From: a virus
Length of the DNA: 48,652 bases
Direction: 5' to 3' (one strand)
Virus record (IMG/VR): IMGVR_UViG_3300021961_000151
Location: 1-48,652 of that record
The position numbers were made by a program, and so were the translations under genes. The notes beneath the pieces were generated by a model. The model saw only the letters and a list, made by a program, of their open reading frames with translations, did no database searches and was not told the origin of the DNA. Each line of letters opens with the position of its first letter. Within the stretch, counting starts at the first letter, position 1. Below, one piece after another: positions 5,750 to 48,652 of this stretch.

Positions 5750-5757
5750 TATTTATT
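5750..5757 (-). promoter_or_regulatory. possible late promoter for PP-loop/cupin genes
   Basis: AATAAATA on the minus strand, matching the looser NATAAATA late motif known from marine T4-like phages. It overlaps the stop of the 1800-aa fibre and ends 9 nt before the PP-loop ATG, leaving a leader of only 3-4 nt. Confidence 0.45.
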
Positions 5758-15026: not shown

Positions 15027-15055
15027 ATTATATATCAATTAAAAATTAATGTCAA
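15027..15055 (-). promoter_or_regulatory. perfect consensus sigma-70 promoter of the accessory island
   Basis: On the minus strand TTGACA (15055-15050), exactly 17 nt, then TATAAT (15032-15027): all 12 consensus bases at ideal spacing. The -35 overlaps the stop codon of the 1423-aa fibre. A start near 15020 gives a leader of about 14 nt containing the GGAG of the 146-aa gene. Such a match in a tightly packed late region is very unlikely by chance. Confidence 0.88.
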
Positions 15056-18000: not shown

Positions 18001-19323
18001 TAAGAAGTCTCCTGTAAAGTTTCCAATAAAGTTACCTGTAAAGTCTCCTGTGAAATCAGTTAAGAAGTTACCGGTGTATGTAATAGGACCTAAGAAGTTA
18101 CCAGTAAAGTCTCCTGTAAAGTCTCCTATGAAATCTCCGACGAAGTCAGTAGTAAAGTTACCAGTATAAGTAATGGGCCCTAAGAAGTCTCCTGTAAAGT
18201 CTCCGGTATAATCAGTTTGAAAGTCTCCGGTGTATGCAATAGGTCCTAGGAAGTCTCCTGTAAAGTTACCGGTAAAGTCTCCTACGAAGTCTCCGATAAA
18301 GTTACCAGTATAGGTTTCAGGTCCTGTAAAGTCTCCAGTATAATCAGTTAAGAAGTTACCTGTAAATAGATTAGTATAATCAACTGCTTCATTAACATAA
18401 TTACCTACAAAGGTACCTTCGAAATCTCCTACGAAGTCTCCTATAAAGTCTCCTGTAAAATCACCAACAAAGGTATTAGTAGAGTTAGTAGTGTAATTTT
18501 CTAAATAGTTAGTAGTGTAGTTTTCATCAGCTGTAGTCTTTCTAGTATCAGTAGCTGTACCTCTAGCTACCCAAGTACCTGTTGCAACAGGAGCTCCTTC
18601 TGCTGAACTTCTTAATTGATAAGATCCAACAGCATTAGCAGCTGACATAATTCTAGTTTTAGCTCTTTGTCCTAGAGTATATTTGATTTGTGCATCAGAC
18701 ATCTCTTGTATGCCTTGATAGGTACCAGTAGCACCTGATGATCTTTTTATAGCAATAGGTCGCGCTGCATTAGGAGCAGCCATAGTATTTCTTTTATAAA
18801 TGCTATAGTTAACTGTAGTACCATCTGTTTGAGTATCAGTATATACGTTAGATAAATGTACTCCATAATTACCAGATGGTGCAGAAGATCCTAAACGATA
18901 GGTGCCTGGATATTCATTAGTCATAATTCTACCAACTAGATTATCAACTAATGAATTTAAATCTGCTGTATCTTGTTCGTATAAATCACTATCGCCAGCA
19001 AGGTTTTGTGCTAAAGGTGTTCTCCAATCAGCACCATTCTCTGCTGCTGTACCTGTTGTTTGATATAAGTCTTTGGTAGTATTACCAATAGATAGAGATG
19101 AACCCGGATGAGTACCTACTGCTTGATTATAAAAAGTATCAGTAAAGGTACCTATTAGAGTATTACCAGAAGCAATATTAGTAAGAGCTCCTACTTCAGC
19201 AGAGTCTGCGTCTGCTAATTGTAATCCTGCTTGATAGGCTAACCATTCGAAATCATCATTACCGGCAGAGTCTTCAAATTCCTTGAAGTCATAAGTGCCT
19301 AGTAGTTTTAAAGGTGTAGCCAT
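15052..19323 (-). CDS. 1423-aa multi-repeat tail-fibre protein
   Basis: Giant fibre-like protein almost entirely of short repeats. Residues 1-270 form a non-repeat N-terminal region (LLGTYDFKEFEDSAGN), the likely virion anchor. Then come: x-G-[D/N]-F tetrapeptides (about 285-600); 16-residue YLGPQAYLGPIAYAGD units (about 600-780); a short spacer; 12- and 20-residue INYTRSSVNPDA-type units (about 820-1045); and 26-30-residue Ser/Thr/Asn-rich units with NSTATSTR and VGDYTTGYVNP (about 1045-1340). The repeats have no Cys. The very regular x-G-D/N-F spacing suggests a beta-solenoid or stacked-turn shaft. A late promoter sits only 6 nt before the ATG and there is no SD. It directly precedes the accessory island holding a glycosyltransferase and an oxygenase-like gene. 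Confidence 0.85.
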   Translation of the reverse strand: MATPLKLLGTYDFKEFEDSAGNDDFEWLAYQAGLQLADADSAEVGALTNIASGNTLIGTFTDTFYNQAVGTHPGSSLSIGNTTKDLYQTTGTAAENGADWRTPLAQNLAGDSDLYEQDTADLNSLVDNLVGRIMTNEYPGTYRLGSSAPSGNYGVHLSNVYTDTQTDGTTVNYSIYKRNTMAAPNAARPIAIKRSSGATGTYQGIQEMSDAQIKYTLGQRAKTRIMSAANAVGSYQLRSSAEGAPVATGTWVARGTATDTRKTTADENYTTNYLENYTTNSTNTFVGDFTGDFIGDFVGDFEGTFVGNYVNEAVDYTNLFTGNFLTDYTGDFTGPETYTGNFIGDFVGDFTGNFTGDFLGPIAYTGDFQTDYTGDFTGDFLGPITYTGNFTTDFVGDFIGDFTGDFTGNFLGPITYTGNFLTDFTGDFTGNFIGNFTGDFLGPITYTGDFTTDFLGNFTGNFLGPIAYTGDFQTDFTGDFVGNFTGDFLGPITYTGDFTTDFLGNFVGNFTGDFLGPITYTGDFQTDFLGNFIGDFTGNFTGDFLGPITYTGNFTTDFTGDFTGNFTGDFLGPITYTGNFLFDFTGDFTGNFIGNFLGPIAYAGDYLGPQAYLGPIAYAGDYLGPQAYLGPISYTGDYLGPQAYLGPIAYAGDFLGPQAYLGPISYTGDYLGPQAYLGPIAYAGDYLGPQAYLGPIAYAGDYLGPQAFLGPIAYAGDYLGPQAYLGPIAYTGDFLGPAGYAGDFLGPAAYTGDFLGPAGYAGDFLGPAGYAGDFIGPGTVYTGNFQRVVLPSYIGAQFSGPNVFPSKFIDYYIGAYFAYVQYTRASSGPEINYTRTSTNPDAINYTRTSTNPDAINYTRSSVNPDVINYTRSSVNPDAINYTRSSVNPDASSFTNPNVINYTRSSVNPDAASYTNVNAINYTRSSVNPDASSFTNPNVINYTRSSVNPDASSFTNPNVINYTGNYTNVDAASYVNPNVINYTRTSTNPDAASYVNPNVINYTGNYTNVDGASYVNPNVINYTRSSVNPDASSFTNPDVINYTGNYVNPDAATSTRDSTAVSTRVSVGDYTTGYVNPNALNSTATSTRNSTRVSVGDYTTAFVNPDALNSTATSTRNSTRDSTANSVGNYTTGYVNPNALNSTATSTRDSTANSVGNFTTGYVNPNASNSTLASTANSTQISVGNFTTAYINPDAATSTQDSTRTSVGNFTTGYVNPDAQNSATTSTRDSTANSTQISVGDYTTGYINPDAATSTQLSTRNSTQNSTQTSIGDFTSNFTNPNDPAANSTQLSTRVSTGNYTTIYINPDAANYTAVSTRNSTANSTQDSTSDYVDPDALNYTAVSTADYLGEYTGNFLGTVDYQGDYTGTFLSNSTLNSTQVSSDTFTGDFIGDFSQTYTGDFFGLTVQATDATVETYTLYCRVA
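15290..16190 (-). repeat. Ser/Thr/Asn-rich repeats (NSTxTSTRxST...VGDYTTGYVNPDA)
   Basis: Imperfect repeats of roughly 20-33 codons with STR, NST and a conserved VG[D/N][Y/F]TTxYxNPxA end, near the C-terminus of the 1423-aa fibre. Unit length varies because STR/NST triplets are gained or lost. Confidence 0.8.
16195..16860 (-). repeat. 60-nt and 36-nt tandem repeats (INYTRSSVNPDA)
   Basis: Near-identical 60-nt units recur in exact register from about 16201 to 16680: 20 codons, INYTRSSVNPDA plus SSFTNPNV or a variant. Beyond 16680 the unit shortens to 36 nt, INYTR[S/T]S[V/T]NPDA alone. So the 60-nt unit is the 36-nt unit plus a 24-nt half. Confidence 0.9.
16990..17530 (-). repeat. 48-nt tandem repeats (YLGPQAYLGPIAYAGD)
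   Basis: About nine 16-residue units in which LGP recurs every 6 or 10 residues. The downstream end changes to FLGPAGYAGD 10-residue units. Copies are close at DNA level and so prone to slippage or recombination. Confidence 0.9.
17530..18475 (-). repeat. 12-nt tetrapeptide repeats (xG[D/N]F)
   Basis: Long run of x-G-D/N-F tetrapeptides (TGDF, VGDF, IGNF, LGNF), broken every 4-8 units by LGPITYTGNF[T/L]TDF. The higher-order period of about 30-40 residues suggests stacked coils. Confidence 0.9.
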
Positions 19324-19355: not shown

Positions 19356-20144
19356 TTATGCTGTTGCGTCAGACTCTACGGTTAACTTAAGTTTTAATGT
19401 AATAGAATAACTGTTAGTAATACCATCTGTACTAATATAAAATGTAAAGTATTGATATTTGCTAAATAAATTACCACCAGATGTAGATCCATATAAATTA
19501 AACCATCTTTCATTATTAGTGCCGGTAGATACTTGACTATAAGAAGTAGTTAAGTCTGCGGAATGAAGAGCATTAGCAGTATTAATTGAAATAGTTCCTA
19601 CTTGTGTTCCTATAGTAGAACCAGCTGAGTATTTAACATAACCACCAGTTAATCCCGCTATTTGATATACTACAGCAGCTAAACCATTAATAGGAGAAGC
19701 AGTAGTCTGGGAAAATGGACCAGTACTAATAATAATCTGTGTAGATGATGCATTATAATAAGAAGCAAAATCCTCATCACCGGCACCTACTTGGTAACCA
19801 AAGTATAAATTAGTATTACCACTTTCTTCTTTAGCTACCATATAGAGCCAGCCTGTAGCTGTTGGGCCCAATGCACTAAAATCATAAGAACTTACATCAA
19901 CATCTCGTGTAGTATCAATTAAAATATTTTCTGATATAGTAACTACTTGTGCACTAAGGAATTGCAACATATTCATAGTACCACTAGTGGGTACATTAGG
20001 AGCCACATCGTTTACATTATCTACAATACCTGCACCTTTTAAATAAGCACGGAAGTTAGAAGCACTGCCTTGCGCATTGAACTCTGTTTGGATTTCACTA
20101 AATTGTAGAGGATCTCCAGCTGATGCGGACGCTTGTAATGTCAT
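19356..20144 (-). CDS. 262-aa fibre-associated virion protein
   Basis: The N-terminal 70 residues show a motif common in marine phage fibre proteins: LQFSEIQTEFN, a short loop, then VPTSGTMNMLQFLSA. The rest is Gly/Ser/Thr-rich beta structure with a TGGYVKYSAGSTIGTQVG-type stretch. The N-terminal motif often marks proteins that plug into fibre or baseplate complexes, but its exact role is not established. It overlaps the end of the S74 fibre by one base and has GAGGG 6 nt before the ATG. It may be a tip or adaptor for one of the flanking fibres. Confidence 0.7.
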   Translation of the reverse strand: MTLQASASAGDPLQFSEIQTEFNAQGSASNFRAYLKGAGIVDNVNDVAPNVPTSGTMNMLQFLSAQVVTISENILIDTTRDVDVSSYDFSALGPTATGWLYMVAKEESGNTNLYFGYQVGAGDEDFASYYNASSTQIIISTGPFSQTTASPINGLAAVVYQIAGLTGGYVKYSAGSTIGTQVGTISINTANALHSADLTTSYSQVSTGTNNERWFNLYGSTSGGNLFSKYQYFTFYISTDGITNSYSITLKLKLTVESDATA

Positions 20145-23100
20145 TAATTACCCTCTAATAATTTTACTTTCTCGTGTAGTTCCTTGACTGCCTCTATAAG
20201 AAGCGGTACTAATTTATCATAAGCTACTGTCTTATATCCATCTTCATTAGTATTAACTATATGTGGGAATAGACCTTCTACTTGTTGAGCAGATACACCA
20301 ACTTGTACTGTTTCTTTATCTGGATTAGTAGCTAGTTCGTTCCATCTATAGTTAAATCCATCTAAGTATGCTAATTTGTTTAATGGATTCTCTATCACTG
20401 CTACATCAGTTTTTAATCTCATATCAGAAGTTGCATAGAAGTCATTAGCATATATGTTAGCTGATGCATCTCTATAAGCTATAGTATTAGCAGTAGCTGC
20501 AGTAGTTGCGTTACTTGTAATAGTAACTGAACCACTTGTTCCTCCACCAGAAAGACCACTACCACTAACTGCTACGCCTGTAATATCACCTACAGCTGTA
20601 GTATAACCAGCTGAGCCTGTTACTGAAGTAACCCTTCCATAAGCATCTATTGTAATAGTTGATATACCTGATGAGTAAGTCGCTGCTCCAGCACCTGCTG
20701 TAGCTAGTGCAACTGCATCTGCGCTAACACTAATACCTGTACCTGCTCCTACGTTTAATGTAGTAGTACCTGAAGTAGTAACTGTACCACCTCCAGTTAA
20801 ACCACTACCTGCAGAGACAGTATGTGAAGTTACTGTACCTGTATTAGTAGTAAAGCCTGCATCGTTACTGAATATACTTAATCCAATTTCATTAGCTGCT
20901 TTTCTTCTATCAGCACTTGCGTCAAGTACGATAAACTCATCTGTACCTAGCATAGTATCTGTCATGTCAGTTAATTCACTGAGAGCAGTTGCTAAACTAA
21001 TAGTACCTGAAGAGGTAACTGTACCACCACCTGACAATCCAGTACCAGCTGTAATACCTACTGAGGTAACTGTACCTGTATTAGAGGTCCATCCAGAGTT
21101 ATTATTAAACTCTGATAGGTTAATATTAGCTTTTGTTAATTTTCTTTCAACTCCAGCTGTATCTACTACTACGAAATAATCTCCATCACCATTTGTAGTA
21201 GAGGTAGCTAACTCATTAAGGTCGATAGCTAATTCAATAGTACCTGATGTAGTAATAGGATTAGTTCCAGAAGATACAATACCTGTACCAGCTGTAATAC
21301 CAACTGAAGTTACTGTAGCAGTAGATGTTCCATATCCTGCAGAACCAGTAACAGATGTCACACGACCGTAAGTATCAACTGTAATAGCTGATATACCATT
21401 AGTAGCTGTAGTCGGAGTAACAACACCACTAGTTAGAGATAAAGTATGTGCAATACCTTCTCCAGTAGTTGCTCCAGTAGAGGAAATACCGGTACCTGCT
21501 GTAATAGTACCTACATAGTTACCAGTAGTATCAGTACCAAGTGCTACTGAGTTAGCAGCAATAGTAGTTGCTAATGATATATTACCAGAACCATCAAATG
21601 AAACACCAGTGGCAGTTACGTCACCAGATAAAGCAATAGTTCTTCCAGTAGCTAAAGTAGTAGCAGTAGTTGCATTACCAGTTAGAGCACCAATAAATGA
21701 AGTAGCTCTTAAAGTACCTGAGTAGTCTGATTCAATATACCATTGATCAACTGCCTCATTCCATTGAATAGATTTGTTTTTAGATGTACCACGCTCTACT
21801 TCAATACCTGCATTTTGTGAAGGTACGCCTGTTTCATCGGCGTTTAATCGAATAATATTATCACCGATATTAACTGTATTAGAGTTAACAGTCGTAGTAG
21901 TACCCGATACTGTTAGGTTACCATCTACTGTTAGATTATTTTTAACAGTAGTAGTACCAGTAGCAGCACCTAAGTTTAAAGTAGTAGCGGCACCAGCTAC
22001 ATTAACTGTAGTAGCTGTAGTGTTCACTAAACTGAAAGTAGTTGAACCTGTGCCTATAGAAGTAGTTACAGTTGGAGTGACTATAGTTGGTGAAGTACCA
22101 AATACTAATGCACCTGAACCTGTCTCATCTGATATAACTGTTTTTAATTCTGCAGAGGTAGTAGCTGAGAAGTCACTAAGTTTATGATTGTGTACTTCAT
22201 TAATAGCAGATACTATATTACTTTTATTAGTAGTAACTAAACTACCTAATGAACCAATTTGTGAATTGAAAGCGTCTGCATTAGCAATTACGTCAGAATC
22301 TAATAATTCGTAATTAGATAATAATAAGTTTAAAGCAGAAGCAACTGTATTGTAACCTGAATCTGTAAAGCCTGATGATAGGTTAGCTGGGTAAATATCA
22401 CCCAATACATACATATCAGAATCTAAGAAGTTAACTACTATATCACCAGATGCATTTTTATTAGTACCTGATCGTATTCTTAATTCACCTGCATTGTTAT
22501 CTAAGCTACCGTAAATAGTACCTGCATCTTTTAATACAATGTTAGCACCATCAGCATCTAGTATAATATCACCTGATGCATCTAATGTTAGATCTCCTGT
22601 TCTACTAATTAAAGGAGTAATGACACTAGTAGTTGCTGTAACGGATCCTGCTGAAGTTACATTAGCACCTGACATAGTTAAGTTAGTAGTAGTACCAGAT
22701 TTAACTATAAGGTTACCTGAACTATTGGTTAATCCACCATAAGTAGAACCATCATCTTTTAATATGATATCAGCGCCGCCTGCGTCTAAATTGATATCAC
22801 CGGAAACATCTAAAGTAAAGTCTCCAGTGCGTGTAAGTTGCGGAGCTACTAATCCTGTAGTAGCTGTAATAGTAGTACCTTGTATAGTAGAAGAAGCATT
22901 TACAGTAGTAAATGAACCTGCTGCTGCACTAGTACCACCTATGACTGTACCGTCTATAGTACCGCCATTGATATCAGCTGTATCTGCTACTAGAGCATCT
23001 ATATTAGCTGTACCATCTATGTATAAATTATTCCATTCTTTAGATACAGAACCTAAATCATATTCTGCATCGCCTGATGGTATTAAATGTGAACCTATTT

Positions 23101-24430
23101 GAGCTTCAATAGCTACTGAGTCAGTAGAAGCATTACCTATAATGCTAGCTGAACCTGATACAGTTAAGTTACCGGTAAAGGTACCATTCGCACCATTAAT
23201 ATTACCAGTAGTAGTTAAATTTTCATTACCGAAACTAATGCTGCCTGAAGTATCTGTAATAGAAGCTGCGGCAACTGTCAATGTGCCTGTTTTAACTGTA
23301 TTGTCTTTTAATAATACACTATCAATAGTAACGCCAGCTAATGATGTTTTTTCATTGATAGTATCAGTGTTTACTGCAGTAGTAGCTGTAATAGTACCAG
23401 CTGAAGTCACATTAGCACCTGACATAGTTAAGTTAGTAGTTGATCCTGATTTAACTATAAGGTTTGCCGAGTTGTTAGTAAAGGCACCAAATTGTACTCC
23501 TGCGTCTTTGAGGAATACATCTGCGCCATCTACATCTAAAGTAATATCAGTACCAGCATCTATAGTTACATTACCACTACCAAATATAGTAGCGTCTCCT
23601 GTTATTTCTATAGAAGGGCCTGCATCTAAATTGAATCTAAATCTTTCTGCTGCTGCATCTGAGAATATAATATCGGAGCCATCAGCGTCTAATGTAATGT
23701 CACCTACTACATCTACAGATAAATCACCAGTAGCTACTACTAATGGAGTAGTGACACTAGTGTTAGCAGTAGCAGTAGTAAAAGTAGCAGCTGCAGGCGT
23801 AGATGCACCAATGACGGTATTGTCTATCGTACCTGCATTAATATCTGCGGTATCAGCTACTAAACTATCAATTTGTGCTGTACCGTCTATGAATAAATCT
23901 TGCCATTCTGAACCTACGGCACCTAAATCATAAGTACCATCTACGGAAGGTATAATATCAGAAGCTACGTCTGCTGTAATAGTTACTGTATCTGTAGCAG
24001 CGTTACCAAGTGTAGTATTACCATTGACGGTTAAATCGTTAGTAACAGTAACAGATCCTGCTGAAGTTACATTGGCTCCAGACATGGTTAAGTTAGTAGT
24101 AGAACCTGATTTAATAATCAGATTACCTGAACTGTTAGTTAAAGTACCGTATTGTGTACCATCGTCTTTTAATATGACGTCAGCAGCACCAGCATCTAAT
24201 ATAATATCTCCGGCAGCTATATCTACAGTGAAATCGCCAGTAGTATTAATCTTGTTAGCAGAAGCGTCAAATACACCTTCTATTTCATTAATAGCACCTA
24301 CTAGATCTGAATCTTCAGTGGTTAAAATAGAATCTGAATCACCGACAAATTGTGATAAGCCATTAAGCTTATTACGCCATACGGATAGGTGATCGCTTAA
24401 TTTAAATTTACCGTTATTACTACCTGCCAT
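20144..24430 (-). CDS. 1428-aa tail fibre with C-terminal S74 chaperone domain
   Basis: Long trimeric-type fibre. Four related modules with GDFTVDI..GDIILDA, a TNLTMSGANVTSAG core and a DLGSVSKEWNNLYIDG-type segment fill residues 40-640. Gly/Thr-rich beta repeats with VTSVGITAGTG follow. The last 94 residues (from Ser1335) are a peptidase-S74 intramolecular chaperone: SDMRLKTD, GFNYRWN, VGVSAQQV and YDKLVPLLIEAVKEL are all in place, ending in a coiled-coil helix. In this family the chaperone drives trimer folding and then cuts itself off just before the Ser. It overlaps both neighbours by one base. Confidence 0.92.
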   Translation of the reverse strand: MAGSNNGKFKLSDHLSVWRNKLNGLSQFVGDSDSILTTEDSDLVGAINEIEGVFDASANKINTTGDFTVDIAAGDIILDAGAADVILKDDGTQYGTLTNSSGNLIIKSGSTTNLTMSGANVTSAGSVTVTNDLTVNGNTTLGNAATDTVTITADVASDIIPSVDGTYDLGAVGSEWQDLFIDGTAQIDSLVADTADINAGTIDNTVIGASTPAAATFTTATANTSVTTPLVVATGDLSVDVVGDITLDADGSDIIFSDAAAERFRFNLDAGPSIEITGDATIFGSGNVTIDAGTDITLDVDGADVFLKDAGVQFGAFTNNSANLIVKSGSTTNLTMSGANVTSAGTITATTAVNTDTINEKTSLAGVTIDSVLLKDNTVKTGTLTVAAASITDTSGSISFGNENLTTTGNINGANGTFTGNLTVSGSASIIGNASTDSVAIEAQIGSHLIPSGDAEYDLGSVSKEWNNLYIDGTANIDALVADTADINGGTIDGTVIGGTSAAAGSFTTVNASSTIQGTTITATTGLVAPQLTRTGDFTLDVSGDINLDAGGADIILKDDGSTYGGLTNSSGNLIVKSGTTTNLTMSGANVTSAGSVTATTSVITPLISRTGDLTLDASGDIILDADGANIVLKDAGTIYGSLDNNAGELRIRSGTNKNASGDIVVNFLDSDMYVLGDIYPANLSSGFTDSGYNTVASALNLLLSNYELLDSDVIANADAFNSQIGSLGSLVTTNKSNIVSAINEVHNHKLSDFSATTSAELKTVISDETGSGALVFGTSPTIVTPTVTTSIGTGSTTFSLVNTTATTVNVAGAATTLNLGAATGTTTVKNNLTVDGNLTVSGTTTTVNSNTVNIGDNIIRLNADETGVPSQNAGIEVERGTSKNKSIQWNEAVDQWYIESDYSGTLRATSFIGALTGNATTATTLATGRTIALSGDVTATGVSFDGSGNISLATTIAANSVALGTDTTGNYVGTITAGTGISSTGATTGEGIAHTLSLTSGVVTPTTATNGISAITVDTYGRVTSVTGSAGYGTSTATVTSVGITAGTGIVSSGTNPITTSGTIELAIDLNELATSTTNGDGDYFVVVDTAGVERKLTKANINLSEFNNNSGWTSNTGTVTSVGITAGTGLSGGGTVTSSGTISLATALSELTDMTDTMLGTDEFIVLDASADRRKAANEIGLSIFSNDAGFTTNTGTVTSHTVSAGSGLTGGGTVTTSGTTTLNVGAGTGISVSADAVALATAGAGAATYSSGISTITIDAYGRVTSVTGSAGYTTAVGDITGVAVSGSGLSGGGTSGSVTITSNATTAATANTIAYRDASANIYANDFYATSDMRLKTDVAVIENPLNKLAYLDGFNYRWNELATNPDKETVQVGVSAQQVEGLFPHIVNTNEDGYKTVAYDKLVPLLIEAVKELHEKVKLLEGN

Positions 24431-35587: not shown

Positions 35588-35595
35588 TATTTATA
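35588..35595 (-). promoter_or_regulatory. T4-type late promoter immediately before gp25
   Basis: Exact TATAAATA on the minus strand, then AAAGT and the ATG at 35582. With the usual 5-nt distance to the start site, the first transcribed base would be the A of the ATG. Confidence 0.72.
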
Positions 35596-36928
35596 TGTTA
35601 CCAAAGACACGATTGGCTACTCTTTCACCACCATCTTGTAACATTCTATTAATAAATCCAGTATCTACATTAGTTGCATAGCCCCAATTCTCATCAGCCT
35701 CACCTGTAATAGTAACCATATCTAACCAAGGATTACTTGTTTTAAGATATTCTACCATACCAGCAGTTACATTAGCAGTGGTGGTTCTATTGTAGTTTCG
35801 TGAATAGTCACTAGAAGGAGTAAAACCATTAGCATGTGTTCCAGACACAGCAGTAAACTGACCTTCTTGTTTAACCACATCAATAATATTATTAGGGTAT
35901 CTATCATTCTTCACTCTGTTTAAAATAACAGTAGTGAGATAGCTTCTCTCTAATGCATTATCACTAACACTAGCTAACACAGTACGAGTCAACGCATTTA
36001 ATTCTGCTTCTGATACTTCTCTATTAATAAAAGCTTCTACTTTTGTCTTTAGGTTAGAATAATTAGGTTCTACTTTAAGTAACAAGTTACTATTAGCTGC
36101 ATCTATAGTACTATTATCTACTGTAGTAGGTGCTTGTATGATATCAGATATAGGTATAGTAGGTGCTGGTAAACTGTCTGGCGCTGGTTCTACATTATTC
36201 GATTGATTAGTTACAATGATTGGATCACGAATATCTAGTTTAGGTTTAAGCTCTACCAATTCATTCATAGCAAATAAAGAATGATTGTAGTAGGTACTAA
36301 TCTGTCTTTCAAATGTTAAATCAAAAGCATAATTAGCATTGGGCATAATTAATATAATCTGTGCATGTAGAGTACCATTAGGATCAAAGGTATCGTATTC
36401 TAAAATTAAATGATCGAAGTTTAAATAATCTTTCCAAAACTCTACTACGTCAAAAGTTTTCTCTAAATCTACTTGACCTTTCTTATTGATTACTTGATAG
36501 ACAATAGCGCGGCCTGTAGTTTTTAGTTCTGCAAAAGTAGCGCCTGGATTGTTAGCATTAAAGGTTGGGAATCGTTCAGTTGCCATATAGTTGGCTAAAT
36601 GACTAGCAGTATTCGGATTAAATGCATTGTATGGTATCGTACCGTTACCACCTGGACGATAATGTCTATAGACACCTTCACTAACTACTAAAGATATATC
36701 TTTAAAAGCTCTTTGATCATCGTTAATCATACGCAATGCTTCGGCATGCAAATATAGATTACGTGCTATCTGCGTACGGTTTTGTGTTGGGAAGTTTTCT
36801 AGTCTACAAGGACTACTCCGGCTACCCATAAACTTACTAATAGTCACACCTGGCGCTAAAGAAGTATTACCTGATAAATTACCTTTTACAAAATTAGGAT
36901 TATACTTCGGGTCTACCAATAATATCAT
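35591..36928 (-). CDS. hub-region protein with M15-like and SleB-like domains
   Basis: 445-aa baseplate-hub protein. Residues about 55-215 resemble an M15_3 D,D-peptidase fold: NLYLHAEALRMI, VVSEGVYR, ASHL, TGRAIV, FDHLILEYDTF, LHAQIIL. The zinc-binding Asp after GRA appears to be Val. Residues about 309-420 resemble the SleB cell-wall hydrolase domain: LTTVILNRVKNDRYPNNIIDVVKQEGQFTAV matches the family well, but Ser stands where the catalytic Glu (AEA) is expected. A Pro/Asn-rich linker (about 240-295) joins them. AGGA lies 8 nt before the ATG. It may be a structural relic or a wall-binding module; activity is doubtful. Confidence 0.65.
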   Translation of the reverse strand: MILLVDPKYNPNFVKGNLSGNTSLAPGVTISKFMGSRSSPCRLENFPTQNRTQIARNLYLHAEALRMINDDQRAFKDISLVVSEGVYRHYRPGGNGTIPYNAFNPNTASHLANYMATERFPTFNANNPGATFAELKTTGRAIVYQVINKKGQVDLEKTFDVVEFWKDYLNFDHLILEYDTFDPNGTLHAQIILIMPNANYAFDLTFERQISTYYNHSLFAMNELVELKPKLDIRDPIIVTNQSNNVEPAPDSLPAPTIPISDIIQAPTTVDNSTIDAANSNLLLKVEPNYSNLKTKVEAFINREVSEAELNALTRTVLASVSDNALERSYLTTVILNRVKNDRYPNNIIDVVKQEGQFTAVSGTHANGFTPSSDYSRNYNRTTTANVTAGMVEYLKTSNPWLDMVTITGEADENWGYATNVDTGFINRMLQDGGERVANRVFGNI

Positions 36929-38358
36929 GTTCTTTTCCTCGGAATAAATCTTTGACTTCTATTTTCTAATGCGTTATTGCCTAAAGGTGTATAACCAAAT
37001 CTAGAAGTAGGTTCATTAGTACTAGTTCTACCTCTTTCAATATTACCCGCTGGTACACTAATATGATAATTACCATGTAGCTTACGCTTCTGAACTAATT
37101 TATTAGCAAAGTCTGCATTAGTAGTTTTATACGTTCTTAACTTAGCACGAATCTCATGTATATCTGGTTCGTGATCTAATAAACCTTTGTAGTCATCTAG
37201 ATGTATTAAATCATTTAAGTAATTATGATCAACATCTAAATCAATATTCTTAATAGCATAATCAGACATATGACACAAACCTATTTCTACTGGAGTGACA
37301 GGAGGTGGTATAATAGGAATAGTAGGAATGATAGGTACAATAGGAATCAAAGTTGGAGCTGGTAGTGCACCTAACTTAATTGCTTGTAAAGCTTGTAATG
37401 AATTAAGAGATATATTAGACGCACCGGCTACTAATGCCATAGCTGCCGTACCTTGTAATTGACCTGTAAAGGTACATAGGCCTGGTATACCTGTATAATG
37501 GCTACCCCAATATTCTACAAAGTCACCACCTATCTTACCTGTAATACCAGTCACTGATACTTGATCACCATTGATGTTAGTGACTTGACCAGTAGCTGCC
37601 CATTCTAAAGCGCCCGATTGCTTAAAGGTACCACTACTGTGCATATCAATATTACCCATACTATTTAATTGATAATGGTTATGATGATGATGTTCAGAAG
37701 TACCATAAGAGCGTCGTACATCTTTTTCTACGATCACTGTTTCTGCTTGACCTTTAATAACTTCTTTATAATCGTTAAGAATCTCAGTAGACTTAGAACC
37801 ATGTATGACTTCTCGTACATTGTTTTTACCAGATATGTTAATGTTACCACCTACTGATAAATTATAGTCACCAGTTACATGCACATCTAAATTACCACGA
37901 TACACTAACTGTCCATTACCTTCTACGATCACAGTATGATCAGCTCCTACAATCTCTACTTGGTTTCTAGGAGAACTATATAGTGTAGAACCATCAGCTC
38001 TTAATTCTATACCAGAACCAGAACGATGTTTAATTAATATTCTTTCACCGCCAGGAGTATCATCTATTTCAATGATATGACCTGATTGTGTTTCTTGAAC
38101 TGAGTTTAAAGGATAAACAGAAGGCTTTTGATCTGGTAAATCAATAGAGATACCAATGTCACCGCCACCTGTAAATAATTCATTAACAGTAGCTCCTCGT
38201 GCAGCTGTATTAATAGAAGAACCGAAGAAATAATTCTGCTTAGGATATTCTCCTGAAGCATCTGCAAAACCATCGGGCTCATACACTCCAGTAGTTAACT
38301 CTGGACCATCACCTCTGTTAGCTATTCTTTTTTGTAAATCATCTCTTGCTGTGGTCAT
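36925..38358 (-). CDS. 5: gp5-like central spike, beta-helix with extra C-terminal domain
   Basis: Central puncturing spike. Residues about 90-335 form a VgrG/gp5C-type triple-strand beta-helix: SGHIIEIDDTPGGERILIKH, SGIELRADGS, HTVIVEGNGQLVYRGNLDVHVTGDYNLSVGGNINI. A His cluster HHHHNH at 223-228 suggests a metal site in the helix. A Pro-rich linker (PTLIPIVPIIPTIPIIPPP) and about 115 further residues follow, unusual after a spike tip. There is no lysozyme or OB-fold in this gene; those functions lie in the two upstream genes. GAGGTG before the ATG; four-base overlap with the next gene. Confidence 0.82.
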   Translation of the reverse strand: MTTARDDLQKRIANRGDGPELTTGVYEPDGFADASGEYPKQNYFFGSSINTAARGATVNELFTGGGDIGISIDLPDQKPSVYPLNSVQETQSGHIIEIDDTPGGERILIKHRSGSGIELRADGSTLYSSPRNQVEIVGADHTVIVEGNGQLVYRGNLDVHVTGDYNLSVGGNINISGKNNVREVIHGSKSTEILNDYKEVIKGQAETVIVEKDVRRSYGTSEHHHHNHYQLNSMGNIDMHSSGTFKQSGALEWAATGQVTNINGDQVSVTGITGKIGGDFVEYWGSHYTGIPGLCTFTGQLQGTAAMALVAGASNISLNSLQALQAIKLGALPAPTLIPIVPIIPTIPIIPPPVTPVEIGLCHMSDYAIKNIDLDVDHNYLNDLIHLDDYKGLLDHEPDIHEIRAKLRTYKTTNADFANKLVQKRKLHGNYHISVPAGNIERGRTSTNEPTSRFGYTPLGNNALENRSQRFIPRKRT

Positions 38359-40127
38359 GAGATCGCACCTCTATTTAATAAATTGTTACAATACTCTTCT
38401 ACATCAAAACCTGGATCTGGTTGATTAACATCTATAGCGTTATGACCTAATATACGCATGCCAGGATATTTAGTTTTCAAAGCGCGCACAAAGGTTTCAA
38501 AAGTATTAAATTGTGTTCTAGTTAATGAACGTACTGTTCTAAATCTTTCAGGATCAGGTGTACCAGTAGGACAATTATACCCACCTACAAAAGCTATCGA
38601 TAGACTTCTTAGATCAGGTATGAGTTCTGCTGTATTAGAAAATAATTCAGGAGGTCTACCTCTTTGTAATACACCATTACGTTTAATAATATAATGATAC
38701 AATATACCATCGTGGCCTAAATCTTTATGAGCAGCATCTATATCATGCGCATCCAAATCTGCATTAACAAAAGAATCAGTCCAATGTACAATACATCTAT
38801 TGATTTCATCTTTATCAAAAGATACCATTTCAGCTTTTAATTCTTCTTCTGAATTGATAGTAGTAAATACATAATCAGCTTGACCCCATAAGTTGGCCGC
38901 TGCTCCTAATTCTATAGGAGTATTGAATACTGATTGTGAAGTATCTAGCTGACTTGCTATACTTTCTGTAATGGTTACTAAAGTCTCTGGTGTTAATGTT
39001 TCTGTAGTTCTATTAGGATTATTACGATTAGCTTCTTGTTGTCCTGCACCTACACCAGGTACAGTATTGCTAATAGCATTATTAATACGTGAGTTGATAG
39101 CAGCTATTTGATCTCTTAAGTTATCTTCTAAAGTACCTGCTTGACGCCATGCATCTAATGTCTGTTGTGCTTCTTCTGTTGTTTGACCTAATATACCTCC
39201 AAGTAAACCAGTAGTATTACTAAAATCTATAGTAGGTTGTCCATTCAATATAGATTGAGCGTAAGTATCTAATAAGTCAGCAGCACTTGCATTAAACTGT
39301 AAATCACTAGCTAGATTAGTTAATGAATCTAACAAACCTTGAGGTCCATTTTTAAATGTATTAAAGGCACCAGTTACCGTATCTGAAATACCACTGACAC
39401 CAGCAGCGTCTGCAGTAGCATGTAAAATATTATTCCAACCAGTTAAATCACCACTTAGTATTCTTCTACCTAATCCAGTAATAGCTAATATTAAAGATAT
39501 TAATGAACCTGTTGAATTATTAGTAATCACAGAAGGAGTAGAAAAAGTATAAGCATCAGAATCAAAAGCCGGTGCGGATATAGTAACAGTAGGAGGTGTA
39601 CCACTATAAGAACCACTATCTACTATACTAATACTAGAGATGACTCCGTTAGATAAATTAGCAGATAATATAGCACCTCCACCACTAACAGTAATAGTCG
39701 GATCTTCAAAATAACCATAACCACCTGAATCTAAACTTACAGAAGCTATAGCGGTAGCACCACCATTAAGAGTTACAGTACCAATAGCAGCGGGCTTAGG
39801 TTGATAAGCTCTAGTAGGAGCAAAGTCCATAGTTATTTTAGAAGTAGTAAAGGTTAAACCTAACATAGAAGCAATTTGTTGTATACCTGCTCCCGATGGA
39901 TCTGTAATAGCACCTAATACTTTATCAGCTGATAGATTTTCTATACCACCAATATTTTCTAAAAAGTCTTTACCAGCATTAACAGCTGACATACCTGATT
40001 TAATATCACCTGCATCTGCTCCTAATAATGAAGCACCAACTACAGCGCTATTACGTATTAGGTTGCTTTCTGAATTTTGTGCAGCTTCGTTACCCGAGTT
40101 TTGAACTGCTTGATCTAAAGTACTCAT
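38355..40127 (-). CDS. hub-region protein with C-terminal N-acetylmuramoyl-L-alanine amidase domain
   Basis: 590 aa. The C-terminal 147 residues are an Amidase_2/PGRP fold: RCIVHWTDS with zinc ligand His448, GILYHYIIKRNG, FVGGYN, and ILGHNAIDVNQPDPGFD with zinc ligands His562 and Asp571. The Lys normally two residues before the Asp ligand reads Gln569, so efficiency is uncertain. The N-terminal part has an Ala/Gly-rich helical region, then a Gly-rich beta repeat (GGYGYFEDPTITVSGGG), which also appears in gp8. It is sited between the gp5 OB-fold gene and the spike gene, so it is probably a tail-tip amidase for crossing the cell wall. GAGGTG 6 nt before the ATG. Confidence 0.82.
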   Translation of the reverse strand: MSTLDQAVQNSGNEAAQNSESNLIRNSAVVGASLLGADAGDIKSGMSAVNAGKDFLENIGGIENLSADKVLGAITDPSGAGIQQIASMLGLTFTTSKITMDFAPTRAYQPKPAAIGTVTLNGGATAIASVSLDSGGYGYFEDPTITVSGGGAILSANLSNGVISSISIVDSGSYSGTPPTVTISAPAFDSDAYTFSTPSVITNNSTGSLISLILAITGLGRRILSGDLTGWNNILHATADAAGVSGISDTVTGAFNTFKNGPQGLLDSLTNLASDLQFNASAADLLDTYAQSILNGQPTIDFSNTTGLLGGILGQTTEEAQQTLDAWRQAGTLEDNLRDQIAAINSRINNAISNTVPGVGAGQQEANRNNPNRTTETLTPETLVTITESIASQLDTSQSVFNTPIELGAAANLWGQADYVFTTINSEEELKAEMVSFDKDEINRCIVHWTDSFVNADLDAHDIDAAHKDLGHDGILYHYIIKRNGVLQRGRPPELFSNTAELIPDLRSLSIAFVGGYNCPTGTPDPERFRTVRSLTRTQFNTFETFVRALKTKYPGMRILGHNAIDVNQPDPGFDVEEYCNNLLNRGAIS

Positions 40128-44848: not shown

Positions 44849-45430
44849 ATGGCCATATATTATCCTGAGCACAATCTTGTGTTTATACATATTCCTAAGA
44901 ACGCTGGGACGTCTGTCAAGCTTTGGTCTCATGCTCACTCTCCTACTAGTATTAACATATTAGAAAAACATGAACACTTTGGTCGTACTTATAATCAACT
45001 TGTATTAAGTAGCTATAATGTAAAAGATCTAAAATCATTTATTATCATTAGAAACCCATGGGATCGAATGGTAAGTTGCTGGGCCTTTTATCTAAAAAGA
45101 GGTATGATAGAATTGAATACTACATTTGAAGATTTTGTAAAACGTAAAGCTAAATTAAAGCCTGGTGTTGGAGAACATCATAGAGGTTGGGGCGCAGTTG
45201 AAACTCAACAATATCGTTTTAATATGATTCCTGATATTGTATTACGGTTTGAAAATTTAACTGAAGATTTTAAAATCATACAGGATATATTAGGTTGCCA
45301 TGTTCCTTTAGAGAAATCTAATATTTCATCTCATATTCGTTATCGTGAATACTATCATAAACAACTCTTAATTGATATAGTGGCCGATCATTTTGTAATA
45401 GATATACAGCGATACGGATATACCTTCTAA
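44849..45430 (+). CDS. PAPS-dependent sulfotransferase
   Basis: Transfers sulphate from 3'-phosphoadenylyl sulphate to a hydroxyl or amine acceptor. The 193 aa carry the 5'-phosphosulphate loop FIHIPKNAGTSV (residues 12-23) and the 3'-phosphate motif IIIRNPWDRMVSCW (65-78, with Arg68 and Ser76), both intact. This pattern is of the heparan-sulphate 2-O / carbohydrate sulfotransferase type. No signal peptide, so it acts in the cytoplasm. It sits between gp4 and a virion gene in a late unit, unlike the accessory genes in the island. Acceptor unknown; a virion glycan or tyrosine is plausible. Its short length (typical 250-350) leaves little room for an acceptor-binding domain. Confidence 0.88.
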   Translation: MAIYYPEHNLVFIHIPKNAGTSVKLWSHAHSPTSINILEKHEHFGRTYNQLVLSSYNVKDLKSFIIIRNPWDRMVSCWAFYLKRGMIELNTTFEDFVKRKAKLKPGVGEHHRGWGAVETQQYRFNMIPDIVLRFENLTEDFKIIQDILGCHVPLEKSNISSHIRYREYYHKQLLIDIVADHFVIDIQRYGYTF

Positions 45431-45447: not shown

Positions 45448-46044
45448 ATGAGTAATCTCTTCGCTAAACTAGAACAGGAAGCTTTTAGGGCTGGTATTAC
45501 ACCACGCTCACAAGCATCTATTCGTTGGTTTAAAAATAAAATAGGAGCTATGCGAAGTGTCAATAGACAAGCTCTCATGCAAGAAAAAGAAATACAAAGA
45601 ATGCAAGCAGACTCAGGTATGATAGGATCTATGTTTATGTATTTCTATGATCCAAAACTTAAATTAACTTTACCATATTACGATAAGTTTCCTTTAATTA
45701 TTATGGTAGGTCCAGCAGAAGGTGGCTTCTATGGTTTAAATTTACATTACCTACCTATGACATTAAGAGCTAAGTTTTTAGATACACTTATGGGTATGAC
45801 TAACAATAAGAAGTATGATACTTCTACTACCTTTAATGTTAAGTATGAATTTTTACAAAAAGCAGCAGGTGCCAAATATTTCAAACCTTGCTTTAAACAT
45901 TATCTAACCAAACATGTACGTGGACAAGTAGCATTAGTATCTGCACCTGAATGGGAGATAGCTACTTTTTTACCGACAGCAGATTTTGAGAAAGCTTCAC
46001 AAAACACAGTATGGGGTGACTCTAGGAGAATAATTAATGGCTAA
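45448..46044 (+). CDS. conserved virion-assembly protein, unassigned
   Basis: 198 aa. EAFRAGITPRSQASIRWFKNKI, then GSMFMYFYDPKLKLTLPYYDKFPLIIMV, then GGFYGLNLHYLPMTLRAKFLD look like a conserved marine T4-like protein found next to gp4 in several phages. I cannot attach a T4 number with confidence; gp2 (DNA end protector), which neighbours gene 4 in T4, is one possibility. No signal peptide, membrane segment or catalytic motif. It overlaps the next gene by eight bases. Confidence 0.75.
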   Translation: MSNLFAKLEQEAFRAGITPRSQASIRWFKNKIGAMRSVNRQALMQEKEIQRMQADSGMIGSMFMYFYDPKLKLTLPYYDKFPLIIMVGPAEGGFYGLNLHYLPMTLRAKFLDTLMGMTNNKKYDTSTTFNVKYEFLQKAAGAKYFKPCFKHYLTKHVRGQVALVSAPEWEIATFLPTADFEKASQNTVWGDSRRIING

Positions 46045-46813
46045 TTCAATTGAAATATTAAAGTCAGAAATTAGTAAAGGTAATGGACCTGCACAACGTA
46101 ATCTATACTCTGTAGAATTACCTACAGATTGGTGGAACGTACCAGGCTCTACTCTAAACTATCTTTGTACTGCAGCTATCATGCCAGGTAGATCTATAAC
46201 TACTCATGAAAGAAGAACTGATATGGTAGTACGACAAGTAGCTTATGGATTCGCTGTTGAACCAGTTACATTAACTTTTAAAGTATTAAACGATAGTAAA
46301 ATAAGAGCTTATTGGGAAAACTGGCAGCGTAATATTCTAGGTGGTTATGAAATAAGTTACTTTAACGACTATGTTCGCGAGATTAAAATCAATCAATTAA
46401 AGAGAGGTATGAATCTCTCTATACTAAATAAAAACTTTTCTAATAAGATAACTAAAAATGTACCACCTGAAATATTAGGAGCCATATCTTCCTTTGCATC
46501 AGGCACAGTAGGAGTAGGTACTTCTAAAGGTAGTGGTATACAGTTAACGGGCGATTTAGCACAAGGTGATTTATCTTTAGGTTTTGTAACCCGAGATCAA
46601 ATAACTTACACTTGTACTCTACATGATGCTTATCCTACTAATATTAGCACGGTAGAATATGGAGATGATCAAAACGAGTTCGTAAACTATACAGTTACAT
46701 TAACTTATAGAGATTGGAGTTCAAATTCTAGTGTATATGCACGAGAACAAGGACGTACCTACGAAGGACTAGCAGGTAGTTTAATTACTAAGGCAATTGG
46801 TAAACTACTGTAA
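46037..46813 (+). CDS. tail-tube-fold baseplate protein, probably gp54-like
   Basis: 258 aa with the tail-tube fold pattern: AAIMPGRSITTHERR (substrate loop), YGFAVEPVTLTFKVLNDSKIRAYWENWQRNILGGYEISYFNDYVREIKI, then FVTRDQITYTCTLHDAYPTNISTVEYGDDQNEFVNYTVTLTYRDW. These features fit gp54, the baseplate tube initiator of T4 (320 aa), or the tail tube itself. The location next to gp26/gp51 favours a baseplate role. AGGAG lies 8 nt before the ATG. Confidence 0.7.
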   Translation: MANSIEILKSEISKGNGPAQRNLYSVELPTDWWNVPGSTLNYLCTAAIMPGRSITTHERRTDMVVRQVAYGFAVEPVTLTFKVLNDSKIRAYWENWQRNILGGYEISYFNDYVREIKINQLKRGMNLSILNKNFSNKITKNVPPEILGAISSFASGTVGVGTSKGSGIQLTGDLAQGDLSLGFVTRDQITYTCTLHDAYPTNISTVEYGDDQNEFVNYTVTLTYRDWSSNSSVYAREQGRTYEGLAGSLITKAIGKLL

Positions 46814-46839: not shown

Positions 46840-47547
46840 ATGAAAAATTTGCCAAAACTGAATGCGTTACCAAAGCATGTTCTAGTGATACCTTCTACTG
46901 GTAAACAAGTAAGGTTTAGACCCTACTTAGTAAAAGAAGAAAAGGTATTAATGATGGCTTTAGAAACGCAAGATACACAAGCACAAATAAATGCTGTGTT
47001 AGATATATGCCAAGCTTGTTTACAAGAAGAAGTAGATATTAAATCACTACCAACCTTTGATGTAGATTACATCTTTACTAAGATAAGATCTAAGTCAGTG
47101 GGTGAGATATCACAATTAAGATATCCTTGTAAAGCTTGCGAAACATTGAATGATGTGGACTTTAACTTAGATGCAGTAGAATGTATAGTACATAAGCAGA
47201 ATCGTAATATCGAAATTGAAGAAGGTATTACTCTTACTATGAAGTATCCAACCTATAAAGAAATGGAAGGAGTCATAGTAGAAGATGATGAAGCTGCTAG
47301 TGCATTAAGAGGTGTAGCCAAAACTATTGAAAGTATTAAAACAGAAGAAGAAGTTATATTAGCCAAAGACGTATCTCCAGAAGAGTTAAACGAATTTGTA
47401 GAATCTATGACTTCTAATCAGTTTGAAAAAATAACACAATACTTAACTACTACACCACAAGTGAAAGGTAAACTTATTTTTGATTGCACAAGTTGTAAAG
47501 ATCATAACGAGGTTGAAGTAATAGGGTTACAGAATTTTTTCGCATAG
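46840..47547 (+). CDS. 26: baseplate hub assembly protein gp26
   Basis: T4 gp26 family (T4_baseplate) hub assembly factor. The 235 aa (T4: 208) have the family's helical N-terminus (VLVIPSTGKQVRFRPYLVKEEKVLMMALE) and two C-x-x-C pairs (Cys97/100 and Cys216/219) that probably form a zinc ribbon. The stop codon follows three codons after a T TTT TTC run, and a second reading frame continues beyond it. Its -1 product would be 298 aa. Confidence 0.9.
   Translation: MKNLPKLNALPKHVLVIPSTGKQVRFRPYLVKEEKVLMMALETQDTQAQINAVLDICQACLQEEVDIKSLPTFDVDYIFTKIRSKSVGEISQLRYPCKACETLNDVDFNLDAVECIVHKQNRNIEIEEGITLTMKYPTYKEMEGVIVEDDEAASALRGVAKTIESIKTEEEVILAKDVSPEELNEFVESMTSNQFEKITQYLTTTPQVKGKLIFDCTSCKDHNEVEVIGLQNFFA
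47535..47541 (+). other. slippery heptamer T TTT TTC, candidate -1 frameshift site
   Basis: In the gp26 frame the site reads AAT TTT TTC GCA TAG. It fits the X XXY YYZ slippery rule, and the zero-frame stop lies six bases later. AGGG at 47523-47526, eight nt upstream, could act as an internal SD stimulator as in dnaX. A -1 shift continues CGC ATA GCC into the gp51 frame. Confidence 0.7.
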
Positions 47548-47735
47548 CCCTTTCTCATGACAACCTAGTTAATTATTATCGTACCAACTTTGCACTGATA
47601 CAACATCATAAATATAGTTTATCAGAAGTAGAAAATATGATACCATGGGAAAGGGAGATATATGTAGCTCTCTTAGTCGAATGGTTGAAGGAAGAAAAAG
47701 AGCGTTTAGAACAGGAAAAAGCTAAAAGAAAATGA
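47541..47735 (+). CDS. 51: gp51-like baseplate hub assembly domain, made by -1 frameshift from gp26
   Basis: Open -1 frame of 64 codons with no usual start codon until an internal ATG at 47637. It reads RIALSHDNLVNYYRTNFALIQ, then PWEREIYVALLVEWLKEEKE, matching the short gp51 of marine T4-like phages (T4 gp51 is longer). Upstream the frame is closed by a TGA 27 nt before the slip site. Two readings are possible: a gp26-gp51 fusion by frameshift, or re-initiation at the internal ATG giving only 32 residues. The conserved residues before that ATG favour the fusion. Its stop overlaps the next ATG as ATGA. Confidence 0.78.
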   Translation, partial: RIALSHDNLVNYYRTNFALIQHHKYSLSEVENMIPWEREIYVALLVEWLKEEKERLEQEKAKRK

Positions 47736-48652
47736 GCATAGAAGCTTTAACAAGAATAACTAAAGACAACCAGGACAAACAAGATAAACAAAATAAAGTC
47801 TCTGGTAAGAACTTAGCTGTTATCGCTGCAGGTATTGCAGGTCTTTGGGCTTGGTCTAAAAGAAATGATGCAAAAGATGATAAAGTTAGAGAAGAAAACG
47901 CTAAACAAAATAAAGAACAAGCTAAACAAGGTAAAGAAAAAGCTAAAAGAGATCGCGATGCAAAACGCCGAGGCGATACAGGCGATCCAACAGTTAATGG
48001 TTTCCGTAAAGCTTTAAGACGAGCTACTGATTCATTAGGTGGATTCTATAGAGGTATCAAAAAAAGTTTCTCGAGTCTCATCGATACTTTTAGTATTGGT
48101 AATTTAAAAAGAACTGTATTAGCTCCATTTAAATTAATATTACCTTTAATAGCTTTAACTGCTGGTCAAGCATTATTAGGTAATCTATTTGGTGGTGGAT
48201 TACTAGCAGCAGGTGTCGCGACTGGTAACCCTGTGCTTATGTTAGCCGGCTCTTTAGCATTATTAATTGGTAATCTTGATAAGTTAATACCATTACTACA
48301 GAAAGTAGCAGATCCGCAATGGCGTCAAGAACAGATTGATAATCTAGCTAAGTATTTTGATCCTGATCAACCTAATAACATATGGAATCTTCTCGGAAGT
48401 AAATTACCTAGCTTTATCTATGCTGTTCTTAGTAGCGCATTTGGTAAATTAAGAGAGATTATTCAAGGCGCGTTAGGTTTAGGTGATAATTTTGCTGGCA
48501 ATGCTGCTAGCACTGTATTAGGAGGCGTTGCTACTTATGCTTTAGCAAGAAGATTACCTTTCGTAGGAAAAATGCTTCCAACTACAGGTAAAGTGTTGGG
48601 TACAGTAGCTGGCGCGACTGGTCTTACTGCATTAACTAAAGGAATCGGAAGT
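47732..48652 (+). CDS. tape-measure-like protein, gp29 position (3' end beyond window)
   Basis: My translation gives 307 codons from the ATG at 47732 to the window edge with no stop. Residues 1-25 are charged; 26-45 form a hydrophobic Ala/Gly segment (NLAVIAAGIAGLWAWSK). Residues 46-82 are a very Lys/Glu/Asp-rich helix. The rest has several Gly/Leu/Ala hydrophobic stretches (LILPLIALTAGQALLGNLFGGGLLAAGVA). Alternating charged helix and transmembrane-like segments fit a tail tape-measure protein, as does the position after the gp26/gp51 pair. A four-base ATGA overlap with gp51 implies coupled translation. Confidence 0.65.
   Translation, partial: MSIEALTRITKDNQDKQDKQNKVSGKNLAVIAAGIAGLWAWSKRNDAKDDKVREENAKQNKEQAKQGKEKAKRDRDAKRRGDTGDPTVNGFRKALRRATDSLGGFYRGIKKSFSSLIDTFSIGNLKRTVLAPFKLILPLIALTAGQALLGNLFGGGLLAAGVATGNPVLMLAGSLALLIGNLDKLIPLLQKVADPQWRQEQIDNLAKYFDPDQPNNIWNLLGSKLPSFIYAVLSSAFGKLREIIQGALGLGDNFAGNAASTVLGGVATYALARRLPFVGKMLPTTGKVLGTVAGATGLTALTKGIGS

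Follow-up and report, generated by a model that had tools for sequence, protein, structure and literature searches.

The window analysed here, the whole 48,652-nucleotide IMG/VR virus record IMGVR_UViG_3300021961_000151, carries near its end a gene for gp26, followed in another reading frame by a short segment of "gp51" sequence. We find that gp26 is very probably the short form of a tail assembly chaperone (TAC-N), and that -1 slippage on a T TTT TTC heptamer at its end would add "gp51" to give a 298-residue long form (TAC-NC) for use in tail assembly. This reading is based on the slip site, its phase and conservation, the coding constraint on the -1 frame, the predicted fold, the gene order and a two-gene counterpart in phage T4. 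Frameshifting of this kind is already known, also from T4-like phages, and the locus is a new, well-supported example. The features concerned are the following.

46840..47547, + strand: gp26, the putative short tail assembly chaperone (TAC-N), 235 aa, with a PF12322 match and an AlphaFold2 model
47523..47526, + strand: AGGG, candidate Shine-Dalgarno (SD)-like stimulator, 8 nt 5' of the heptamer
47535..47541, + strand: slippery heptamer T TTT TTC, predicted -1 frameshift site, in register and conserved among relatives
47545..47547, + strand: TAG, the 0-frame stop of gp26, one codon 3' of the heptamer
47541..47735, + strand: "gp51", the putative C-terminal part (TAC-C) of the long chaperone, 64 codons of the -1 frame plus the stop, matching phrog_634 (E 1.4e-29) and the C-terminus of phrog_150

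The gp26 open reading frame (ORF) ends CAG AAT TTT TTC GCA TAG, so that the heptamer at 47535-47541 stands in the correct X XXY YYZ register of the gp26 frame, two codons 5' of the stop. Read in the -1 frame, the sequence has no stop from 47517 until a TGA at 47733-47735; the earliest ATG, GTG or TTG of this frame is the ATG at 47637, from which a product of only 32 aa would be made. A fusion would comprise 234 codons through TTC and 64 from the CGC at 47541, 298 aa in all, with the predicted junction ...LQNFFRIALSHD..., and the start of the downstream ORF (ATG 47732) overlaps the gp51 stop as ATGA. The details given in an initial annotation made from the window alone (heptamer, -1 frame, ATG 47637, AGGG 8 nt 5', 298 aa, ATGA) all proved exact. 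The fusion protein, as that annotation also proposed, would be made at a low ratio and may be translationally coupled to the next gene.

A slippery-looking heptamer by itself is no proof of anything beyond chance. Across the window, in 34 ORFs comprising 15,184 codons, we counted 43 sites of the form X XXY YYZ in frame; four read T TTT TTN. The T TTT TTC at 47535-47541 is the only one of the 43 that adjoins a stop, and the only one at which the -1 frame outlasts the 0-frame stop (by 61 codons). The comparative evidence is far stronger. Used as a DNA query against the phage collection the locus gave no match, and protein searches were therefore used instead. The search of IMG/VR returned 80 loci whose gp26 is 40-48% identical; every locus in which the end of gp26 is present has T TTT TTN in register, a 0-frame stop directly after it or one codon on, and the same -1 protein beginning FF. 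When near-duplicates were removed, 36 non-redundant relatives remained. The in-frame T TTT TTN is kept in 36/36, bearing out the initial expectation that it would be conserved, and the phase of "gp51" is -1 throughout. The codon 5' of the Phe pair always ends in T (GAT, AGT, AAT or GCT), and TTT invariably encodes the first Phe, against a background usage in these genes in which TTC makes up 27% of Phe codons and GAC 26% of Asp codons. The joint probability of such retention through codon usage alone is ~10^-14.6, a figure overstated in that the relatives were taken as independent. At other places in these genes, T TTT TTN is the spelling of just 2/30 Phe-Phe/Leu pairs.

The codons between the heptamer and the first possible Met are also maintained as protein. 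In 34/34 relatives the distance from the heptamer to a conserved Met-[ILM]-Pro-Trp-Glu motif is exactly 32 codons without an insertion or deletion, and over those codons the difference rates at -1-frame codon positions 1, 2 and 3 are 0.29, 0.18 and 0.51, which indicates that the stretch is selected as protein in the -1 frame. The claim that this frame holds conserved gp51 sequence thus stands, as does the claim that a start is missing: no start codon is common to the relatives, 25/34 have no ATG, GTG or TTG up to ~30 nt past the slip site, and the remaining nine have only scattered GTG or TTG codons there. In 7/34 a -1-frame stop lies directly 5' of the heptamer. In public records the gp51 start is annotated variously after the gp26 stop, or gp51 is missing, an inconsistency that is expected if no real start exists. 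Judged from the relatives, a programmed -1 frameshift at the end of gp26 is very likely.

A possible stimulator lies upstream. Over the 36 relatives, pairing with the anti-SD sequence peaks ~11 nt 5' of the heptamer (mean -5.7 vs a background of -2.8 kcal/mol), and this element is stronger than in 299/300 synonymous recodings. It resembles the dnaX type of stimulator. For a downstream stem-loop or pseudoknot as stimulator the signal is at most weak.

We then asked what gp26 is. The protein matches PF12322 (T4_baseplate) with E 3.7e-57 and 193.9 bits, against a curated cut-off of 24.5, and its AlphaFold2 model is of high confidence, with a pLDDT of 90.4 and a pTM of 0.85. For gp26 residues 1-97 the best VIA matches were 2OB9, the HK97 protein named tail assembly chaperone in the PDB (Z 7.8), 3FGX (Z 7.8), a related prophage protein, and 3KLU (YqbN; Z 7.2), also a tail assembly chaperone; the match after these three scored Z 4.4. 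For the structural second look, 822 PDB chains were aligned. A search of the gp26 profile against PDB sequences gave no match, and a search of NCBIfam nothing useful. With the model taken into account, the likeliest identity of the gp26/"gp51" pair is that of a tail assembly chaperone.

Comparison with T4 suggests how the two segments belong together. T4 gp26 (208 aa) and T4 gp51 (249 aa) both match PF12322 over their full length (E 8.8e-64 and 3.9e-52), but T4 gp51 alone carries ~50 extra C-terminal residues, and these align with the -1-frame segment of the window. With hhalign, the window matched T4 gp51 in the C-domain with E 9e-5 and in the N-domain with E 5e-6. In the alignment, the point at which the C-domain begins in T4 gp51 coincides with the Phe of the frameshift. 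T4 gp51 is thus homologous to gp26 in its N-domain and ends in the same C-domain. The T4 genes differ from this lineage in being two and divergently transcribed, and gene 26 ends without a slip site, whereas here there is one gene. Two PF12322 genes occur in four T4-type records and one in every non-T4-type record searched; no second gene with a gp51 N-domain stands beside gp26 in the window, a 48.6-kb fragment beyond which a copy may lie. T4 would accordingly use gene 26 for the short and gene 51, an in-frame fusion, for the long form, and the frameshifting phages one gene for both, which makes cyanophage "gp51" the C-terminal domain of the long form. T4 gp51 is reportedly required but no part of the virion (PMC3004832). 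When T4-like genomes were compared in 2010, cyanophage gp51 was ~20% of the usual length and lacked the first ~200 residues, and Aeh1 lacked gp51 (PMC3037559). The first observation would be explained if gp26 supplies the N-terminus through the frameshift. The second is explained by Aeh1 itself (NC_005260 119001-119777), which has T TTT TTC and an unannotated chaperone C-domain in the -1 frame. KVP40 has the same T TTT TTC site.

The heptamer is also found in the phages AS-yj, Ps15, phiM9 and LPCS28, among phages of Aeromonas, Stenotrophomonas, Cronobacter and Sinorhizobium/Agrobacterium, and in deep marine groups and Rhizobium-type phages. Two kinds of exception keep the -1 C-domain. The Ackermannviridae (loci L100-L117, L090 and L094) have no T TTT TTN and conserve ATT TTC ATY TAA (ATTTTCAT(T/C)TAA); in the Vibrio K413/D533 group (L087 and L093) the heptamer is missing and the sequence reads CTT TTC AAG TAATG. 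A search for further loci of the Vibrio group in viral contigs found no related ones. Relatives with a clean gp51 start and no heptamer, which the initial annotation had named as evidence to the contrary, were thus found only in distant groups (the Vibrio TAATG group and part of the Ackermannviridae), and not among the near relatives.

Several other explanations of this arrangement can be weighed against frameshifting. One is that gp51 is a separate gene translated from the internal ATG at 47637. That ATG exists, and many records annotate gp51 counterparts from internal starts after the gp26 stop; the 32 codons before the Met, however, are constrained as -1 protein with no indel in any of the 34 relatives, the equivalent residues are present in frame in T4 gp51, and a heptamer would have no reason to be retained. 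We regard an internal start as extremely unlikely. Nor do we give much weight to a free C-domain that arises when ribosomes terminate and reinitiate at or close to the gp26 stop, whether or not frameshifting occurs as well: TAATG or TGATG overlaps do occur in several relatives, including phiM9-like phages, some marine groups and the Vibrio K413 group, but neither the window nor most of its near relatives have a start codon there, and most groups retain the heptamer even with the overlap. Reinitiation is therefore a very unlikely source of "gp51" here.

It is just as improbable that RNA polymerase, rather than the ribosome, slips on the T run. All 36 relatives have runs of six or eight T, but in 19/36, the window included, there are only six, which is short for polymerase slippage, and a T in register before TTT TTN together with an SD-like element fits ribosomal slippage. 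That a sequencing error or gene decay separated gp26 from gp51 was suggested by the proneness of homopolymer runs to error and by the in-frame fused version in T4; this has practically no chance of being correct and is refuted by the recurrence of the arrangement in dozens of independent contigs and isolates. The internal start, reinitiation and polymerase slippage were thus each weighed and rated low.

A number of observations count against a frameshifted chaperone. The SD-like element of the window, at -3.8 kcal/mol, is weaker than that of most relatives, and there is little sign of RNA structure downstream (mean z -1.2 over the relatives, +0.8 in the window), which leaves stimulation uncertain. 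Structural Z scores of 7-8 are middling when taken alone, and Foldseek gave gp26 an E of 0.75 with a probability of 0.85. With a model of T4-type gp51, the same chaperones were absent and nothing exceeded Z 2.9 in the PDB second look; this does not exclude a chaperone fold, since the candidates had been chosen by Foldseek. Finally, several distant groups have TAATG or TGATG at the gp26 stop alongside the heptamer or instead of it; groups that have both may, to judge from the overlaps, also translate the C-domain as a free protein.

In the frameshifting mechanism that we favor, a minority of ribosomes would slip back one base on T TTT TTC, assisted by the SD-like element ~10 nt upstream, with the P- and A-site tRNA-Phe re-pairing on TTT TTT. 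The gp26 stop would then be bypassed and the 64 residues of "gp51" added to give the 298-aa TAC-NC. Mixed short and long forms would bind and recruit the tape measure protein, probably the product of the next ORF, while the tail tube is assembled. That slippage occurs, how often it does so, and that the pair acts here as a chaperone are what we infer from the sequences.

The genes on either side are as follows.

45448-46044, + strand: DNA end protector gene, among the last genes of the window
46037..46813, + strand: tail-tube-like protein, 258 aa, matching PHROG phrog_45 (tail tube; E 3.5e-29)
47732..48652, + strand: tape-measure-like downstream ORF, incomplete at the end of the window; tape measure PHROGs are matched by its aligned counterparts in relatives

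The gene order is thus tail tube, TAC, TAC-C and a tape-measure-like ORF. The ORFs directly 3' in relatives match tail length tape measure PHROGs, as the best family in 9/14; the window's own ORF fragment matched no tape measure PHROG, and its profile found in the PDB only designed coiled coils and unrelated proteins. Composition may therefore contribute to these matches, and the tape-measure label stands for coiled-coil-type similarity plus position. A sulfotransferase-family gene (44849-45430; PF03567, E 1.1e-8) lies within the virion gene cluster, just 5' of the DNA end protector gene.

Elsewhere in the window, on the - strand, a 1423-aa ORF at 15052-19323 consists mostly of brief repeated units (GDFTGDFLGP..., LGPIAYAGDYLGPQAY, SSVNPDASSFTNPNVINYTR); its DNA holds tandem repeats of 12-156 nt, and the protein has no Pfam match. 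It is possibly an adhesin or fibre. Two tail fibre-like ORFs of 1800 and 1428 aa (5756-11158 and 20144-24430, - strand) have repeated units of the YYTT.R.DSDFD or LTNSSGNLIVKSGTTTNLTMSG type. Two separate peptidoglycan-degrading candidates, at 38355-40127 and 35591-36928 (- strand), carry an Amidase_2 domain (E 9.4e-6) and a Cell Wall Hydrolase domain (E 3.6e-9).

The initial annotation had likened the locus to the lambda G/GT tail-chaperone arrangement. The chaperone fold and the gene order uphold this likeness, which in itself is not new. Several T4-like groups reportedly share the frameshift, with separate genes in the T4 group, in agreement with two papers that cite Vladimirov, Gautam and Davidson (2022; Virology 566:9-15). 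The PRFect paper (PMC10885494) refers to that study for T4-like phages which, instead of frameshifting, have a short chaperone gene and a second, long fused one. The phage Adele paper (PMC12846349) credits it with poly-T frameshift signals found in the TAC-N genes of phages like T4. The present locus resembles the TAC-N/TAC-NC systems described there in its short and long forms and its poly-T signal, other T4-like phages using two genes; it differs in coming from an uncultivated marine-type virus whose gp26 is ~40-48% identical to sampled relatives. Like lambda gpG/gpGT (and P2 E/E'), it is placed between the tail tube and tape measure genes, and the window's order matches lambda V-G-T-H. The lambda slip site is G GGA AAG, whereas that found here is T TTT TTC, and gp26 is larger, with extra domains bearing paired cysteines after the shared N-domain. 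The Vandenendeviridae/Andersonviridae locus of phage Adele shares a -1 programmed frameshift, a T-rich site and a downstream ORF misannotated as a separate gene, but has a GTTTTT motif and belongs to other phage families (PMC12846349).

At least three routes may have preserved the -1 chaperone frame among T4-like phages and their kin, a proposal that we give an even chance: T TTT TTN slippage in this lineage, KVP40 and Aeh1; duplication and in-frame fusion in T4; and a route without the heptamer in the Ackermannviridae and the Vibrio group. The last, if true, would mean non-canonical slippage or a separately translated C-domain. For gp26 as a tail assembly chaperone, the analysis adds independent evidence from the predicted fold. 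It also corrects a widespread annotation error, in that cyanophage gp51 would be the C-terminal part of a frameshifted chaperone and not a truncated stand-alone gene.
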